This document shows positions 11,142 to 39,751 of a stretch of 64,000 nucleotides of DNA, piece by piece. The stretch covers positions 496,001 to 560,000 of the forward strand of contig NZ_OZ026461.1 of assembly GCF_964019765.1 (NCBI RefSeq), in the 5' to 3' direction. Position 1 is the first letter of the stretch; every line of letters begins with the position of its first letter. A model generated the notes under the pieces. It saw nothing but the letters and a program-made list of their open reading frames with translations, was not told the DNA's origin and searched no databases. This DNA is from Spiroplasma endosymbiont of Panorpa germanica (GTDB lineage Bacteria > Bacillota_I > Bacilli_A > Mycoplasmatales > Mycoplasmataceae). The translations under genes were made by a program, and so were the position numbers.

Positions 11142-12608
11142 TTAAATAAATAGTACATTTTTAAAGCCATTATAAAGCAAACTATTCACACCATACTGAT
11201 TTTTGTAAGTATTTAGTTGTTCTTCAGAATCAAAAAGATATGTTTCAGTTATATTATCAATCTTTGAGTCATATAAAGCCATTACAACTGTTGAAGTAGC
11301 GGTTGGAATAATCCTGAATTCCTTATCGTCCACTTTATTAAAAGCGCCTGCATAGAGATAAATTTCAAGAGGGATTTCTTGTTTCATGATTTTAATATTA
11401 TTTACCCCAACATTTTCAGCTGCTTTAATGAAATCTTTTATATTTTTATCTGACTCTCTTGGATGAGGCTTAAATCAAATTGTATAATCGTTTGAAGAAT
11501 GTTTTTCTTTCAAGTAGTTATCAATACTTTTCACAGCTTCAGCACTTTTTTTGACAGTTATTCCTTCCCCCATTTTGTTACCACTATATACAAAATTCAG
11601 TTCAGATTCGGCCTTAGGCATTTTATCATCAGTTAGTTGAAAAACATCTTTAAAAATTTGTAACCCGTCTTTTTCATAATCCTCATTTTTTCACTGCATT
11701 ATTGCATCGTTTATACCCGCTCCAACAGATGAATATGTATTTCTCTCTCTTCAGTAGTTTGACTCATCATAAAATTGAACATCATTAATTGCTCAAGAAT
11801 TAATATAGCGAACCCCGTAACTATTTCTACTAGTTACTAGCGGAAAGAAGGTATTTATATATTTCTTCATGTTAGTTTTTTTATCAAAATCTCCAGAAAA
11901 AAGTGAAACAACCTCTGATGACAATTTTTCGAAATTTTTGCTTGATAAATATTTAAGATCATCATATAAGTTTAAAGAAAATGTGTTATGAGCTGTACCA
12001 TCAGTCATTAAAGTTAATATTTCAACTTGATTCATAACACTTGATAAATTAGTCAATGACTTTGAAGATACCTTAGAACTCATTGAATAATCATCTGTAA
12101 ATAAATTTACTTTTTTAATATTTGGATCTTTTTTATTTAAAACTTTAATCCCCTCTTGAATTATAAAAGGTTTTAATTCTTGATTAGAACCCTTCAAATA
12201 TTCAACATGAATATTTGAGAAGTTTTTTGAAAGAGCATCAATGTTTGTTGTGTTTTTACCAAGCGGACCATCGGGATTCATGTCGTTGCTTAAATAAATA
12301 ACGATTTGTCTTTCTGGGAACATTAAAGCTTCGCTTATTGCTGATACAAATGCTTGAACTCCAATTGCAGCTCCAGCACGAGAAACATAGTATAGTGTAC
12401 CAGTATTTAAGCCTAATTCATTTTGTTTTTTAACTGTCTGAAGATAATTATTAATACCTTCGTGTTCATCATCCTTGATTTCATTTGGAGTAAAATTATA
12501 TCTTGAGTCAATATCAACCAATTTTAAATTCAATTGACAAGAAACTACTCCTAAAGATGTTGAAGATACAAGTGATATTGATGCTAGAATGGTTAGTAAT
12601 TTTTTCAT
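11142..12608 (-). CDS. Lipoprotein with GT80 sialyltransferase-like domain
   Basis: 488 residues. It has a lipoprotein signal peptide with lipobox VVSC (Cys24), so the mature protein should sit on the outer face of the membrane. The rest follows the motif order of GT80 sialyltransferases of the Pasteurella PM0188 type: a Rossmann-like start (QIVIYLSND), a segment with LMTDGTAHN (Asp203, aligning with LNLYDDGSMEY), FVYSGN, then WFKPHPRE (His382), EIPLEIYLYAG (Glu415) and TATSTVV (Ser439/Thr440). In that family the Asp, His, Glu and Ser residues of these motifs form the CMP-sialic acid site. All are present at matching relative positions. The motif reading is mine from memory of the family, not from a search. 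The acceptor and donor are unknown. It sits just after dinB. Confidence 0.7.
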
Positions 12609-12615
12609 TTTTAAT

Positions 12616-13914
12616 CTACTTCTTTCATTTTTGTTTTACTTGTTCATTTGAAATGTGAACATCATCATTTTTAATAAATTTTGATTGCGAAATATTTTTA
12701 TCAATTTTTTTATTGAGCTTTTCTGCGGTAAAAATAACCTCTGAGTTCATTGAAAAATTTATGTCAAAGGTAACTTGATCTAATTCATTTTTATTGTTTC
12801 TTTCTTCTAAAATTTCAAATGAAATTTGTTTGAATCCATCAATATTAGAAATCAAGTTTGAAGAGCGAACTCCAATTAAGGAGATTGCTTCACCCTTTCA
12901 TAAGTAATCAAAACAGCTTTGCGCCACAACTAAAATATCTTCAAAGTTATTACTAGTTTTAGATAGCGTCTCTTGTCTTCTGATAGTTTTTTTGTGAATT
13001 CTTTTATTATATTTTTCTTCACTTGATCTTTCATATCTCAAAACTATTGAAACACAATTGGCTTCTAGTGATCTTTTCTTAAGTCTTTCACTGATGTTTT
13101 TGCAAATTCAATAAATTATAGTTCTTATTTCTTCTTCGTTTGAAGTTGAAAATTCTAAGGTCATTTCATTTCCGATGCTTTTCATCTCGTTGCTTTTTGA
13201 TATGACATCATCATCTCCGATGCCCATTGCGTTTAATTTCAATTTTCTTCCGTTTTTACCAAGCAAAGTTTCTAAAAATTCGATATTTGTGTTAGCTAAA
13301 TCACCAATTGTAAATATCTGATTATTTTTTAATAACTCCGCTGTTGAAATTCCCACTCCAAACATAGTCTCTATTTTTAGAGGTCATATTAAATTGGGAA
13401 CATTTTTTGGGAGTATTATCATAGTACCATAAGGTTTTTTAAAATCAACCGCTGTTTTTGCTAAAAATTTATTAGTACTAATACCGATTGAACAACTAAC
13501 GTTTAAATCGGCCATTATTTTTTTCTTAATAGACTCAGCCATGTTTGTTACGGTTTTAAATTTTTTATATTCATTCGTGACATCAATATAACATTCATCG
13601 ATAGAAGCTACTTCCATTTTTTTTGAGAAATTATTATATATGATATCAAAAATTTTGCTTGAGAATTCAATATATGTTTTAAAGTCAGAAGGTAAAACAA
13701 TCAACTCTTTACATATTTCCTTCGCTTTAAAAACTGGAATCCCAGCTTTAATCCCTAAACCTCTTGCAGCATAAGAAGCTGCAGTAACAATGGCACGACT
13801 ATTTGGTGAAGCAACTACAACAATAGAATCTTTTGGTAAATTATGTTTAGCCATTGAGCAAGAAGCAAAAAAAGCATCCAGGTCAATTAAGAAAATAATC
13901 TTTTCATTACTCAT
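12616..13914 (-). CDS. dinB: Y-family DNA polymerase (Pol IV)
   Basis: 432 residues including TGA-Trp codons. Catalytic motifs are FLIDLDAFFASC (first metal ligand), SYAARGLGIKAG, and MEVASIDECYIDVT (catalytic SIDE), followed by SCSIGISTNKFLAKTA and the GVGISTAELLKNN helix-hairpin region. These are the palm/fingers and thumb of DinB/UmuC polymerases, which copy damaged DNA. The C-terminal 60 residues beyond the little finger are not recognisable. ATG 13914 overlaps the tlyA stop by 8 bases, so the two are translationally coupled. Confidence 0.92.
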
Positions 13915-18502: not shown

Positions 18503-20830
18503 TTACTTTTGACCTCTTTTTCAATTTGTTATTAAAGTTTGTGATTCCTCAAACTTACTTTGAACGTGTAGGAAAAGAGTATACACCCTTAGTGCAAAAA
18601 GACTGTCCACTTCACGGTTGTAAATTTTGTTAAATATCATTGAACTATTCTCTTTTAAAAATTCATAAGTTTCTTCGATATTCATATATCTAAGGTTTTC
18701 TTCGAATTTCTTGAATTTATTTTTATCGTATTTTTTTGAGTTAACTATTAGATTATCTTTTTGAATTTGAAATTGATCCATAAAATACTCAAAATAAACC
18801 GCTCAACGCATTACTTCAGGAAGAGATTTGTTATTTTTCAAGTAAACAAAATCCTCTGTAACCTCAGTTGTTAAGGTATTTTCAAACACCATTTCAAAAG
18901 TATTGTTTATAAAATCATCATTAATTTCTTCAACGTTTTTATCATGATTATCCAAAACTTTATCGTAGAATTCTTTGCTAATATCCTCTTTTATTGATTC
19001 TTTTTTAGCTCGTTTTTTCTTGGTATTTTTCTTTACAACAACTGATTCTTCAACAACTGATTCTTCCACAACTGATTCTTCAACAACTGATTCTTCCACA
19101 ACTGATTCTTCCACAACTGGTGCTTCAACAACTGGTGCTTCAACAACTGGTGCTTCAACAACTGGTGCTTCCACAACTGGTTCTTCCACAACTGGTTCTT
19201 CCACAACTGGTTCTTCCATAACTGGTGCTTCCACAACTGGTTCTTCCATAACTGGTGCTTCTTCAACTGATTCTTCCACAACTGGTGCTTCTTCAACTGG
19301 TTCTTCCACAACTGGTTCTTTTAAATCTTCTTCTAAAATATTCTTTAAAATTAAATCTTCTTCTAATTCAATTGTCATTTCCTCAATTGATGTTTCATCA
19401 TTATCAATTTCATTCGATTCGCTATTATCATTTACTTCGAAATACTCGCCCTCTTGAACCTCTTTAACTTTTTCAATAGGTATTACTTCTTTTCAAATAT
19501 CAAGTAGATAATCACCACTTAGCCCAAAAATTTCTTCCTTTTCCTTGAACTCAATTGTTTTAATTTCATTATTCTCATCAACAAACTCAATTGTTGGATC
19601 AAATGCAATGAACTCCTCTAAAATTATAGTCTCTTCCACAACTGGCTCTTCCACAACTGGTTCTTCCACAACTGGTTCTTCCATAACTGGTTCTTCCACA
19701 ACTGGTGCTTCCATAACTGGTTCTTCCACAACTGGTTCTTCCATATCTGGTGCTTCCACAACTGGTTCTTCCACAACTGGCTCTTCAACTACGATTTCAG
19801 GAAATGCTATTTCTTCATCCAATTTTAAGTTACCCAAGGGGATGCTTGAATCTAAAATGGAAGTATTATCAAATGTGACTTTTTCCTCAAATTCAGGAAA
19901 AGTGATGTCCTCAACATTTTCTTTATCATCTTTATTTTTTGAATGAACTTTATCTTTAAAAAATAAATCGTCAATCTTGCTAATTTTTTTGTAATAAAAA
20001 CAACTTGTCAGCGAGTGAAAAAAATTATTTTTAGGATTAAACTCAACAATTGGGAGATTATTTTCTAGAAGATTTGTGTTAATAAATTCAAAGTTATTTT
20101 CTAGTAGGTCATCCTTTATTTCTAAATTTGTTGAGTTTGTATTGTAAATTACTATTAAAGAGTTTTTGAACAGCAGTTCTTTTAGATTATTAATTGATAA
20201 AAATGATTTGCTTTGGTTTGAAAAAAAGTTATTTAGCATTGGCTTAACAGCCTCTTTAATAAATTGTGAATATAATTTTGAATAATCATAATTTTCTTTA
20301 ATATTAATTAAGTTCTCATTTATGATTTTAAACTGATTAAAATCAAAAATTATAAAATCAGCCAATTGTAGGTTAACTTCACTTTCAATATCTATTTTCT
20401 TGCTCTTATACGCCAAATTTTTAATTTCAGCTTTTTTAAATTTGGTCTTACGATTTCATTCTTTTTTTATTAAGTTTTGAATTTCTCTTTTTTCAACTTC
20501 AGTCAATTCACCGTTATTCTCAATAATGCAGACATCTTTAAATTGCTTATTTTCAAATACCTTTTTTGCCTCATTCAAATAATTTTCTAAAAAATCATCT
20601 TCTTGATATATTAATTTTTCAAAGTCCTTCTCCAAATTATGTAGGATGAATTTATTTTTAAAAACCTCATTTAGCATTTCCTTTTTAGAGGTTTTTGATT
20701 CGTTATTTTCTAGTTTCTTTTCATAGTTAAAAATAGCATTAATAAAAATTCTTAACAAAATATTTTTGTCAATATTGTTTTTAATTACTTTTAAGTTATG
20801 AAATTGATCAAAGAATTTAACTTTATTCAT
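18503..20830 (-). CDS. Unknown large protein with two Val/Glu/Pro pentapeptide repeat tracts
   Basis: 775 residues, seen only when in-frame TGA codons near 20456, 19493, 18803 and 18521 are read as Trp; otherwise it falls into four or five pieces. There is no signal peptide or membrane segment. Residues 1-330 are charged and helical. Residues about 347-400 and 504-598 are tandem five-residue units of the type P-V-V-E-E/A, with S and M variants, encoded by 15-base repeats. The C-terminal 190 residues are ordered and helical (FALRVYTLFLHVQSKFEES). The acidic, proline-spaced tracts probably form stiff spacers. It is locked between nusB and xseA with no gaps. I do not recognise the family. Confidence 0.75.
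19036..19320 (-). repeat. 15-base tandem repeat tract, C-terminal (about 19 units)
   Basis: Degenerate 15-base units (consensus CCAGTTGTGGAAGAA on the coding strand) code for PVVEE, PVVEA, SVVEE and PVMEE. The 3'-most units are almost identical SVVEE copies, which points to recent expansion. Confidence 0.85.
19632..19795 (-). repeat. 15-base tandem repeat tract, N-terminal (about 11 units)
   Basis: The same 15-base unit as the tract at 19036-19320, separated from it by about 300 bases of non-repeat coding sequence, in the same reading frame. Confidence 0.85.
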
Positions 20831-21260: not shown

Positions 21261-22184
21261 TTATTTATCTAAGAAAATAGAGAATCACAAACCAGCTATT
21301 TGAATTGGTTTTGAGATTTCCTCAACATTTTTACTTTGGAAATTTGAAAGCAATGTTTGCATTTCTATATTTAATTTTTCAGTTGCTTCTTTATTTTCTT
21401 TTGTATACAGAAAACTAACAAACTCATCAAAATTTTTGTTAAATGCTTCTCCATTTTTGCTAAAGCTTTCGATAAGATATTGTTTTTGAAGATTATTGCT
21501 TATTTCTGAGGTAACTCCATTTTTAAAGCGTTTAAGTTGTAGACTTTCATTATCAGCTGAAGTGTTTCAATCAGAAGGTTTTGAAGAATTAAATGAATTG
21601 AAAAAATTTGAAGTAAAACCAACTGGATATGGGTTTTCTTCAGTAAATGTACCCATTGGAAAACTTAAACTATCTTGGTTATCGCTAACTGAAATCTTAT
21701 CTCTATTAACTAAAAATATTTGTAAAAAACCTGTTGTATCTTCATCAGTGGCTCCTACAAATTTTACAAAGAAATTGCTTTCTTTGTTAACTAGAGGGCC
21801 ATCTTTTACGTTTTGATCAAATAATCCCATTGGACCAATAAAATGGCCATCTAGAATTTTTGACTGTTCCCTGTTGGTTCTATAAAAAACTATTTTATAT
21901 TTAGAAATTATTTCAACAATTTTACTTGATGAGTTATTATTAGAAAATTTAATTGCAGTTTGGTTAAAAATCTCTTCTTCAATCTCTTCTAAAGCTTTTT
22001 TTTCATCATTGGCCTCGATGCTTACGTTACCTACAATAACATTTCGACTAATATTTCAAGCTTTATCTATTGATCTAGCATTTTCATATTCAACAAATGT
22101 AAGATGTTCTGCACAAGCTATTACACTCATTCCTCCAGCTGCTGTTAAACTAAAAACTGATAAAATACTTAATAATTTTTTCAT
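21261..22184 (-). CDS. Predicted lipoprotein
   Basis: 307 residues with a signal peptide MKKLLSILSVFSLTAAGGMS and lipobox VIAC (Cys24), so it is a surface lipoprotein. The mature part is mixed alpha/beta with no motif I recognise. Two TGA-Trp codons interrupt it. A strong AGGAGG ribosome binding site precedes the ATG. It is not similar by eye to the GT80-like lipoprotein. It may belong to the large, fast-evolving lipoprotein sets of mollicutes. Confidence 0.75.
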
Positions 22185-34845: not shown

Positions 34846-34878
34846 TTAAAAAGAATCCATTATTTGGATTCTTTTTTT
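34846..34878. terminator. Bidirectional terminator between pncA and arcC
   Basis: Stem AAAAAGAATCCA/TGGATTCTTTTT with a 5-base loop and T run. It serves convergent pncA and arcC. Confidence 0.75.
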
Positions 34879-35809
34879 ATATCTTAATTTTAGTTCCTGA
34901 TTTTCCGGCTAAAACTTCTTTAACTTTTTCTAAACTACCAATGATGGCTAGATTATTTTTACCCTTTTCTGCAAAACTAATAGCTGCCTCAACTTTAGGC
35001 AACATACTACCTGGAGCAAACTGGTTATCCTTAATATGTTCAAGTAATTCATCTTTTGTTACTTCGCTTAAAGCTTTTTGTTCAGGTTTTTTATAATTGA
35101 TCATAATACTTTCAACGGCAGTTAATATTATTAATTGATCGGCTTCAATAATTTCAGCAACCTTAGCAGCAGCAAAATCTTTATCGATTACAGCTGCAAT
35201 ACCAATTAAATCTTCCCCTTGTTTAAAGACAGGGATTCCTCCGCCTCCGGCAACAATAGGAACAATACCGCTTTCAATCATTGATATAATAATATTTTTC
35301 TCAATGATATCAATTGGTTTAGGTGAAGCAATCACCCTTCTTCAACCCCTACCTGAATCCTCTTTAATAGACCAGTTATTTTTTCTGGCTAAATCTTTTG
35401 CAGTATTTGCATCATAGAAAGAACCAATGGGTTTGGTTGCGTTACTAAAAGCTTGATCATTTTTATCAACAACTGTTTGAGTAATTAAACTACCAACTTC
35501 TTTGTTGATTTTCATTTTATTAAGCTCGTTTTTTAGAGCTTGTTGTAAATGATAACCAATGTAACCTTGACTCATGCTTCCGCATTCAGGAAAATCAACA
35601 ATTGGTGATTTAGCATCGCTTTTATGAGCTAAATCAAAACCTAAATTAATCATTCCAACTTGAGGACCGTTTCCATGAACGATAACAAGTTGATTGCCTG
35701 AAGCAATAATGTTCGCTAAATGCTTAGCTGTATTTTTAACTATTTGTTTTTGCTCATCAGGACTATCACCAAGTGCGTTTCCTCCGATTGCTACAACAAT
35801 TTTACTCAT
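34877..35809 (-). CDS. arcC: Carbamate kinase
   Basis: 310 residues. VVAIGGNALG, LVIVHGNGPQVGMI, PECGSMSQGYIGYHLQQAL, VIASPKP and VPIVAGGGGIPV are ArcC motifs, as is AVIDKDFAAAKVAEII. It makes ATP from carbamoyl phosphate in the last step of the arginine deiminase pathway. A TGA-Trp follows EDSGRG. It is the last gene of the arc operon, with AAAGGAG before its ATG. Confidence 0.95.
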
Positions 35810-35829
35810 ATGAAAATGTCTCCTTTATT

Positions 35830-35861
35830 AAAAATATCACACACAGTAGTGTGTGATATTT
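35830..35861 (-). other. Perfect hairpin between the antiporter gene and arcC
   Basis: Inverted repeat AAATATCACACA.../...TGTGTGATATTT with a small loop lies in the gap between the antiporter stop and arcC. A T run follows on the minus strand but is short. It may set arcC mRNA level by termination or processing. Confidence 0.55.
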
Positions 35862-35869
35862 AATTTATT

Positions 35870-37456
35870 CTAAAATATTGGTGAAGGTAATAATGTACCT
35901 AACGATAATAATACAATTGAAATTAATACAGTTCCTAGAATGTAAATTCATGCACCTTTAAATAGTTTTGAGTATTCTATTTTAGCAATTCCTAATGCTC
36001 CCATTACAACTCCTGAAGTTGGAGTAAATAAATTTAAAGTTCCAGAAGCAAACGAGAATGCAGTGATCGAACCACTAGCAGCTGATGCACTAATTCCTCC
36101 AGCTACTGGTCCTCATAGAGGGAATATTGCAGTTGCAAATCCAGATGTTGATGGAATCAAGAATGATAATGGTAAGAATATAAGGAATGAAACTATAACA
36201 AAAGGAAGTGTTCCAAGTCCACCAAGTCCACTTGAAAGTCCTGTAATAATTAAAGTTTGAATACCACTTGAGCTCATAATGAAACCAAGTCCAGCAGCAA
36301 CAGCGATAACTAAACAAACTCCTAACATATCTCTACTTCCGGCAATGAAACCGTCAACATAATCTTCTTCGCCTTTTCAATCAATCAAAGCAACAATTAA
36401 AGAACTGATTATGAAGAAACAAGCAACTTCTGCAAGTCCACCTTCTCCAAATCCTGGAATTAATCCAGATAAGAAGAATACGTATTTGTTAAATCATTCT
36501 CCTGCTTCAGCAGCTCCGGTCCCACCAATAATGCTATCTCAACCAACTAGGTATAAAATCATAATCAAGAATGTGATCAAGAAAACTACAAGTGTTCCTA
36601 TTCTTTTTTTAGTGAAATTCACTTCCTCAACTGATTCACCAAGGAAGAAAATTTTATCTTTTTCTGCAGTTTCAAAAACTACAGATTTTTGTGGATTATT
36701 TTTTACACGATTAGCATATCACATAATAAATCCTATTGTGAATAATGTGAAAATAACTCAACTGATTCAACGGAATGCCATTCCTGTACTAGTTGTTATA
36801 TTTTCTAGTCCTGAAGATTCAACAGCTAGACCGATTAGGAATGGGTTAACAGTTGATGCAACCACCCCTGTTCCAGCTCCAAATAAAACAATCATTAGAG
36901 CTGTAAAACTATCAAATCCTGCTGCAATCATTAAAGGAATAACAATCATATAAAATCCTAATGTTTCTTCGGCCATACCATAAGTTGAACCACAGAAACT
37001 AAAGAAAGTAACTAATACTGGGATTACTCAAATTGCGTTTTTCCCTAATTTTCTAGTTATTGATTGGGTAAAAGCTTCTAAAGCTTTTGTTTTCATAATT
37101 ATACTTAAGAATCCTCCCAAACAGATTATGAAAATATTAATTTCAGCCTTGTCAACAAACCCTTTGGTCATTGCCAAGAAAATATCTAATATACCGGTTC
37201 CTTTTACAGTTTGACTTACTGTTTCTCATTCATTTGGAATTGGATTACCCGAACCGTCAGATTCTCATGCGATGGGTCTTCTTAAATTATAAGTTCACCC
37301 AGATAGACTACCAATTCACGTAAATATAACAACAACAAATATTATGAAAAACAATATCGTAAACGACGTGGGCATTTTAAATTTCTTTTTTTTACCCGAT
37401 CTGGAATTTGAACTTGTTTCAAATTGTCCAGAACTTTTCTTTTCTTTTTTTGTCAT
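35870..37456 (-). CDS. YfcC-family transporter, likely arginine/ornithine antiporter
   Basis: 528 residues, about 12 membrane segments, readable only with many TGA-Trp codons. The motif-rich core GGFLSIIMKTKALEAF, FSFCGSTYGMAEETLGFY, FGAGTGVVASTVNPF and FLIPSTSGFATAIFPL belongs to the YfcC/C4-dicarboxylate anaerobic carrier superfamily. Members inside arcA-argF-arcC operons are taken to exchange arginine and ornithine. The exchange role here is inferred from the operon, not from a substrate motif. ATG 37456 follows AAAGG. Confidence 0.85.
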
Positions 37457-37539
37457 AAAAAACCTTTCTATCTTAAATAGATATAATGTTTATTTTAAAC
37501 AATAATCATTTAAATTAATAGTTTTTTACTATTTTTTTG

Positions 37540-38535
37540 TTAATTTCCAATCATTGCAACCATTACAGCTTTTATTGAATGAACACGGTTTTCAGCTTCT
37601 TCGAAAACAACTGAATTTTTTGAACGGAACACTTCATCAGTTACTTCCATCTCTTTTAAACCAAATTTTTTGTTAATATCTATCCCTACTTCAGTATTTA
37701 GGTCATGGAAGGCAGGCAAACAGTGCATAAATAATGCATCAGATTTAGCTTGTTTCAATAAATCCATATTTACTTGGTAAGGTTTTAGTTCTTTAACTCT
37801 TGATTCTCAAACTTCTGCAGGTTCTCCCATTGAAACTCAAACATCAGTATATAGAACATCAGCATCTTTTGCTGCAGCTTTTGGATCTTCGTTAAATTCA
37901 ATTTTAGCTCCAGTTTCTTTTGCGATTGCTTGACACTCTTTTACTAAGCTATCTTCGGGTCAATATTTTTTAGGAGCAGCTGCCACAAAATGCATACCCA
38001 TTTTAGCGGCCCCGATCATCAATGAATTTCCCATGTTATTTTTGGCATCACCAAAGTAAACTAATTTTTTACCTTTTAATTCTCCGCGTTCTTCAATGAT
38101 TGTCATAAAGTCGGCTAGAATTTGGGTTGGGTGATATTTATCGGTTAAACCGTTAAATACTGGAACGCCTGAATGATTTATCAGAATTTCAACATCTTCT
38201 TGTTTGTAACCTCTAAATTCAATTCCATCATACATTCTACCAAGAACTTTGGCAGTATCTTCAACAGATTCTTTTTTACCCATTTGCGAACCACTAGGTC
38301 CTAAATACGTAACTCTAGCCCCTTGATCTAATGCAGCTACTTCAAACGCACATCTTGTTCTTGTTGAGTCTTTTTGAAATAACAGACAAATGTTTTTACC
38401 AACTAATTTTGGAATTTCATTTCCTGCGTATTTAGCTCTTTTTAAATCTCTTGCTAAATCCAATAAATATCTAATTTCTCTTGGTGAGAAATCTAGTAAA
38501 GTTCTAAGACTTTTTCCTCTTAAATTTAAGGCCAT
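37540..38535 (-). CDS. argF: Ornithine carbamoyltransferase, catabolic
   Basis: 331 residues. [46 protein letters not shown] and the C-terminal [18 protein letters not shown] match OTCases. In this operon it runs in the phosphorolytic direction, splitting citrulline to ornithine and carbamoyl phosphate. No other arginine-synthesis gene is seen. Residues for carbamoyl phosphate binding (STRTR) and ornithine binding are intact. Confidence 0.94.
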
Positions 38536-38563
38536 ATTTTTTCTTTCTCCAAACTAATAATTT

Positions 38564-39751
38564 CTATTTTAAATCTTCTCTTACTAAAGGCATTGTCATA
38601 CAACGAGGACCACCTCTACCACGAGAAAGTTCGCTACTTGGAGTTACAATTACTTCAACCCCAGCCTTTTTTAGTAAGTCAATTGTTACTCAATTTCTTT
38701 CATAAGCAATTACTTTACCTGGAGCAATTGTTATAACATTTGTTCCATCATTTCATTGTTCTCTTCCTGCAGCAATTTCATCTGAACCACCACATTTGAT
38801 TAGTTGAACTTCTTTTCCAACTATTGAACTTAAAAATTCAATTAAAGGTTTCTTAATTTCTGTTTTTCCTTCTTTTGTTATTTCAAATATTTTAAATTCA
38901 CTAATTGCATCGAAAATTAATGGATGCACAATAAATTTATCAAAATCAATATTTGTGAAAACTGTATCTAGGTGCATGTAGCTTCTAGTTTTTGGTAAAT
39001 CTAATACTATAATTTTTTTAAATGTTTCTTCTCCTTTGAACAAGTTCTCGGCAAGTTTATCAACCGCTTGGTGACTTGTTCTTTGAGAAACTCCAATTAT
39101 TAAAGTTTCCTTATTCAATACCAAGATGTCACCACCTTCGATAAAGTCTTTATATTCTCTTTGATAAACTTTTTCTACATTATTTTTATAATCTTTGTGA
39201 TTATCAAAAACAAAGTCTGGAAAAAGAGTTTCACGATTTCTTGTTTCACTTCACATTTTGTGAATTGTAACTTTATTACCAACTGATGCAAATGGATCTC
39301 TTTGGAATAAAACGTTTGGTAATGGATCGGCTATAAATGGATATTCTGTTTTATCTTTTTCATCCAATTCTATTTTTTTAGTTCCACCAATCATTTGTCT
39401 TACCATGTCGATATTTGACATTTTTGATAAAAAGTCTTTAAAATCTTTAGCGTATTCTTTTTTAACTTTTGCTTCTTCAATAAATTTGTTAATAAAACCA
39501 TCTCTTAAATCTGGGTTTTGGTCAAGTGTTTCTGCCACTAAATTCTCTATATATTTAACAACAACACCATTTTCTGTTAGCAACTTGGTAAACCTATCAT
39601 GTTCAAATTGTGCTACTTTTAAGAATGGTATGTCATCAAATAATAAACGATCCAGTAAATCTGGTGTTAAGTTTTCTAGTTCATTTCCTGGACGGTGTAC
39701 TAAAACTTCTTTTAATTTTCCTATTTCAGAAAATACATTAATTTTGCTCAT
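38564..39751 (-). CDS. arcA: Arginine deiminase
   Basis: 395 residues. Guanidine-group motifs [30 protein letters not shown] (catalytic His) and the C-terminal [13 protein letters not shown] with nucleophile Cys384. ADI hydrolyses arginine to citrulline and ammonia. Two TGA-Trp codons join the parts. Its ATG follows GGAGGA. It is the first gene of the operon. Confidence 0.95.

Follow-up and report, generated by a model that had tools for sequence, protein, structure and literature searches.

The gene, its surroundings and its relatives

The window, by which we mean the whole stretch of 64,000 nucleotides that was analysed, is part of a genome of 1,054,068 bases in a single contig. At 11142-12608 on the minus strand it holds a coding sequence for 488 aa, placed to the base by the first-pass annotation. 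The frame is open under genetic code 4 only, in which four TGA codons are translated as Trp (W272, W286, W306, and W378); translation table 11 interrupts it at these four codons. The features that carry the argument are listed below, with the corresponding residues of the GT80 enzyme PmST1 and the GT38 polysialyltransferase MhPST.

11142..12608, minus strand: coding sequence, 488 aa, genetic code 4, lipid-anchored sialyltransferase-like glycosyltransferase
12537..12608, minus strand: lipoprotein signal peptide, residues 1-24, lipobox VVSC with Cys24 (NF038029)
11346..12395, minus strand: PF07388 (A-2_8-polyST) match, residues 72-421, E 3.2e-7, 30.6 bits, cut-off 23.3
12000..12002, minus strand: Asp203 of TDG, predicted catalytic base (PmST1 D141, MhPST E153), invariant in 16/16
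11460..11471, minus strand: K380-P381-H382-P383, HP motif, with K, H, and P invariant in 16/16 (MhPST K289, H291, P292)
11364..11366, minus strand: Glu415, predicted ribose-binding residue (PmST1 E338, MhPST E323), invariant
11289..11294, minus strand: Ser439-Thr440, predicted phosphate-binding pair (PmST1 S355/S356, MhPST S339/T340), invariant

The preceding gene, 12616-13914, appears to encode a DinB-like DNA polymerase, and its stop lies 7 bases from our coding sequence, so that shared transcription of the two is probable. No Rfam family was found at the locus. Elsewhere in the window the minus strand carries another lipoprotein-like gene (21261-22184, 307 aa, MKKLLSILSVFSLTAAGGMSVIACAEH), a gene for 775 aa with long acidic repeat runs of the EEPVVEEPV/EAPV type (18503-20830), and an apparently full arginine deiminase cluster with putative deiminase, carbamoyltransferase, antiporter-like membrane protein, and carbamate kinase (34877-39751). 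About 8 kb into the window (genome ~504,000 of 1,054,068) the GC skew flips from positive to negative, and the main coding strand changes near the same point; this is possibly the replication terminus region.

Residues 1-24 match positions 1-24 of the 24 in NF038029 (NCBIfam, LP_plasma lipoprotein signal of mollicutes) with 29.9 bits against a cut-off of 24, and Cys24 is the final position of the match, which bears out the lipoprotein signal peptide that had been proposed with this very cysteine. Searches of whole Mycoplasmatales genomes gave 15 relatives with 15-71% identity to the query. Their distribution is patchy, the family being present in about 16 of 320 genomes, and in a class-level search of an even sample of 395 genomes, performed with a profile from which the N-terminus had been removed (profile A3), only five matched, all of them mollicutes. 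Many lipoproteins matched the family profile weakly; these were rejected, the alignment being confined to the signal peptide. No relatives turned up in two scans of named genome contigs, and a literature search found no report on a Spiroplasma or mollicute sialyltransferase.

All 15 full-length members, the query included, seem to possess a hydrophobic N-terminal export or anchor segment. A clear lipobox-like Cys is present in six of them (query, L002, L003, L006, L024, and L029); L004 and L005 have no lipobox at the expected site and carry a C-terminal membrane helix instead (Kyte-Doolittle 2.6-2.7), and the remaining ones have apparently uncleaved N-terminal anchors or are ambiguous. That one domain is held by differing anchors would argue that its outside position matters. 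The Photobacterium GT80 enzymes probably have a lipobox, in which case lipid anchoring of a sialyltransferase would not be without precedent. In four genomes a small membrane protein of ~125-131 aa (L023:3053-3427, L025:198-581, L028:3057-3443, and L030:29-421) is encoded directly upstream of the transferase gene; it is a possible partner.

The dN/dS ratio between the query and its nearest relative is ~0.13 (0.205/1.55, with synonymous sites near saturation), and that between L004 and L005 is ~0.11 (0.073/0.68). Because these values are low, ~0.1, the family is under purifying selection. The copy in genome G036 (L007/L022), read with code 4, is interrupted by two TAA stops in frame and is probably a pseudogene or a sequencing error, and genome G092 (L009/L034) holds a divergent fragment only, in which HL replaces HP and ESST surrounds the Ser/Thr pair.

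Sequence family, predicted fold and invariant residues

PF07388, annotated as alpha-2,8-polysialyltransferase, is the sole Pfam match of the query and lies above the curated cut-off; the same profile is matched at E<=1 by 7 of the 16 family members. Profile-profile comparison also joins the query family to PF07388 proteins, with a probability of 93% and E 4e-7, over the region from K-x-HPR to P-x-E. The class-level PF07388 matches L055-L057 were set aside, since they read as putative UDP-GlcNAc 2-epimerases. The first-pass annotation had named GT80 as the family. Its profile PF11477 (PM0188) gave no match to the query up to E 10 and none in the whole genome, and control genomes gave none either; PF07922 (GT52, Glyco_transf_52) likewise gave no match to the query up to E 10. 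Searches of the solved-structure sequences with the query, both single-sequence and profile, returned nothing significant. By sequence the family is PF07388, and the GT80 family label is not supported. What stood of the earlier claim is the predicted fold, which is nearest to GT80 crystal structures, and the label sialyltransferase-like GT-B is supported for the query.

Two AlphaFold2 models, the first from 7 and the second from 16 sequences, reached moderate confidence (pLDDT 65 and 69, pTM 0.73 and 0.75), which is low near the D203 loop. In Foldseek searches against the PDB, GT80 sialyltransferases headed the lists for both models (best E 6e-10 and 3e-9), in agreement with the GT-B domain originally proposed. 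They filled ranks 1-8 for the first model (E 5.7e-10 to 1.3e-8), followed at rank 9 by MhPST (5WCN, E 2.3e-6), and ranks 1-6 for the second. Enzymes using UDP-sugars came next at ~1e-5 to 1e-4. The nearest fold is hence of the PmST1 type, at moderate model confidence. The TM-scores to the best structures are modest, ~0.35-0.5, which would fit a different spacing of the two domains in the models or errors in the low-confidence parts. A search of a viral fold library found no sialyltransferase. In the second model D203 follows the strand 195-201, K380 sits at the end of the strand 376-380, E415 at the start of the helix 414-419, and S439/T440 at the start of the helix 440-448; these predicted places along the secondary structure agree with a sialyltransferase active site.

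In the alignment of the 16 members the invariant columns besides Met1 are D203, G204, G343, K380, H382, P383, E415, S439, and T440. The motifs recognised at first reading, MTDGTAH, KPHPRE, IPLEIYLYAG, and TATSTVV, are indeed found in this order and at the places given, and all five residues named there from one sequence (D203, H382, E415, S439, and T440) belong to these nine columns. Under a uniform draw such an overlap would have a chance of ~6e-10, a figure that overstates the surprise because catalytic-type residues are conserved more often. The HP motif of the bacterial GT-B sialyltransferases (GT38/GT52/GT80) is thus invariant as H382-P383, and so is the full CMP-contact set with K380, H382, P383, E415, S439, and T440. 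Order and spacing agree with those in the known enzymes: the distance from the His to the Glu is 33 residues in the query, 32 in MhPST, and 27 in PmST1. The base of MhPST is E153, its cytosine contacts are K289 and P292, and it binds the ribose through E323 and the phosphate through H291, S339, and T340 (PMC5517516); the corresponding PmST1 residues are D141, H311, E338, S355, and S356 (PMC4202792). The D/E-D/E-G motif is found with one acid: D203-G204 is invariant, but the first position is T202 in the query and T, S, A, or G in the relatives. Mutation of E152 in MhPST, the counterpart of T202, gave a 300-fold worse catalyst (PMC5517516).

A probable transferase outside the cell and its alternatives

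Profile searches with positive controls, which a very divergent enzyme could escape, found no NeuB in any of the 17 carrier genomes (17/17) and no credible CMP-sialate synthetase (NeuA), so that the genome search for CMP-sialic acid synthesis came out negative. NeuA-family matches over the cut-off occurred only in G036 and G315, and both are IspD; weaker ones, below the cut-off, were seen in G001 and G002. The same searches gave no BNR_2 sialidase and no NanA-type lyase (PF00701) in any carrier, while NanE exceeded the cut-off in six carriers and was absent from the query's genome. A genome without NeuB and NeuA would need to obtain a CMP-sugar from the host or from neighbours.

We are highly confident that the gene product is exported, that its domain is a GT-B one of the sialyltransferase type, and that its CMP site is intact. 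The protein would carry a lipid at Cys24 and be kept at the outside of the cell's only membrane, and its two-domain fold, from the GT38/GT52/GT80 neighbourhood, would transfer a CMP-activated sialic-acid-like sugar with inversion. In this reaction D203 would remove the proton from the acceptor hydroxyl. By analogy with the known enzymes, K380 and P383 are predicted to read the cytosine, E415 to hold the ribose, and H382, together with S439 and T440, to bind the phosphate and stabilise CMP as it leaves. The donor would be taken from the host or from neighbours, and the acceptor may be a glycan on the own cell surface or on the host. That the protein is active in this way outside the cell is probable, and we regard the whole account, an extracytoplasmic membrane-anchored transferase with an environmental donor, as fairly likely. 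It draws on the PF07388 match, the profile-profile match to PF07388 proteins, the fold matches to GT80 and (in the first model) GT38 enzymes, the invariant residue set, the N-terminal export or anchor segments, the missing NeuB and NeuA, and the low dN/dS. T202 in place of the first acid, the moderate models with their low TM-scores, and the lack of a significant sequence match to a solved structure speak against it. The scarcity of free CMP-sugar outside cells and the low sialic acid content of insect hosts, which are likely here, count against it as well.

A surface lipoprotein in a cell without CMP-sialate synthesis, in which the first acid of D/E-D/E-G is lost, could also be a non-catalytic binder of a nucleotide or sialoglycan, for example an adhesin that retained the GT-B fold. 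A plain glycan binder would not require D203, H382, S439, and T440 together, and the base and all donor-contact residues are invariant in 16 proteins with identities down to 15%, which makes this reading unlikely. Slightly less likely again is an enzyme working in reverse with the same active site, a CMP-dependent or hydrolytic (trans-)sialidase on the surface that strips or moves sialic acids of host glycans. GT80 enzymes are known for CMP-sialate hydrolase, trans-sialidase, and sialidase activities (PMC4202792; PMC8512710), and no BNR_2 sialidase gene was found in any carrier; yet in the known enzymes these are side activities only, and without NanA-type lyase in the carriers and NanE in the query's genome the freed sialic acid would have no evident use as food. 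We give the least credit to a GT-B transferase for a different nucleotide sugar, such as CMP-Kdo or a UDP-sugar. The HP motif is common to the CMP-using beta-Kdo transferases (PMC5517516) and UDP-using GT-B enzymes come next in the fold search, but sialyltransferases precede them there by ~4 orders of magnitude in E-value, and K380 and P383, whose MhPST counterparts bind cytosine, are invariant.

Nucleotide-sugar transferases normally act inside the cell, where the donor is made. If the favoured reading of an extracytoplasmic transferase is true, this conserved family, exported and with its CMP site intact, would mean surface sialylation by a borrowed donor in wall-less bacteria. More tentatively, and with somewhat less than even confidence, one may speculate that mollicutes without sialic acid synthesis genes have an extracytoplasmic, membrane-anchored family of dedicated sialyltransferases. 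With CMP-sialic acid made by the host, these would coat the cell's own surface or remodel host glycans, so that nucleotide-sugar glycosylation would take place outside the cell. Surface glycosylation of mycoplasmas is established, with the enzymes not yet identified (PMC12453214). The family is a concrete candidate for this process, although the reaction described there uses oligosaccharides and not nucleotide sugars.

Comparison with known systems

L050 and L051, the top PF07388 relatives outside the mollicutes, have the EDG/DG, K-x-HPR, P-x-E, and S-S motifs in common with the query family. Unlike its members they have no export signal, and they adjoin a CTP_transf_3 gene of the CMP-sialate synthetase type, whereas no credible synthetase was found in the genomes of the query family. 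Gonococcal Lst relies on CMP-sialate scavenged from the host, as the cell is unable to make its own, and is now located inside the cell (PMC11078009). It resembles the role proposed here in its host-derived donor but belongs to GT52, whose PF07922 profile the query does not match. The GT80 enzymes (PmST1 and those from P. dagmatis and Photobacterium) are the best structural matches, and D141, H311, E338, S355, and S356 have counterparts in the query, which differs from them in the missing PF11477 match, the single acid of D/E-D/E-G, its mollicute host, and its mollicute-type lipid anchor. Finally, MhPST of GT38 differs by E152 at the position of T202 and by its work in capsule synthesis inside the cell, but its E153, K289, H291, P292, E323, S339, and T340 all have counterparts in the query.
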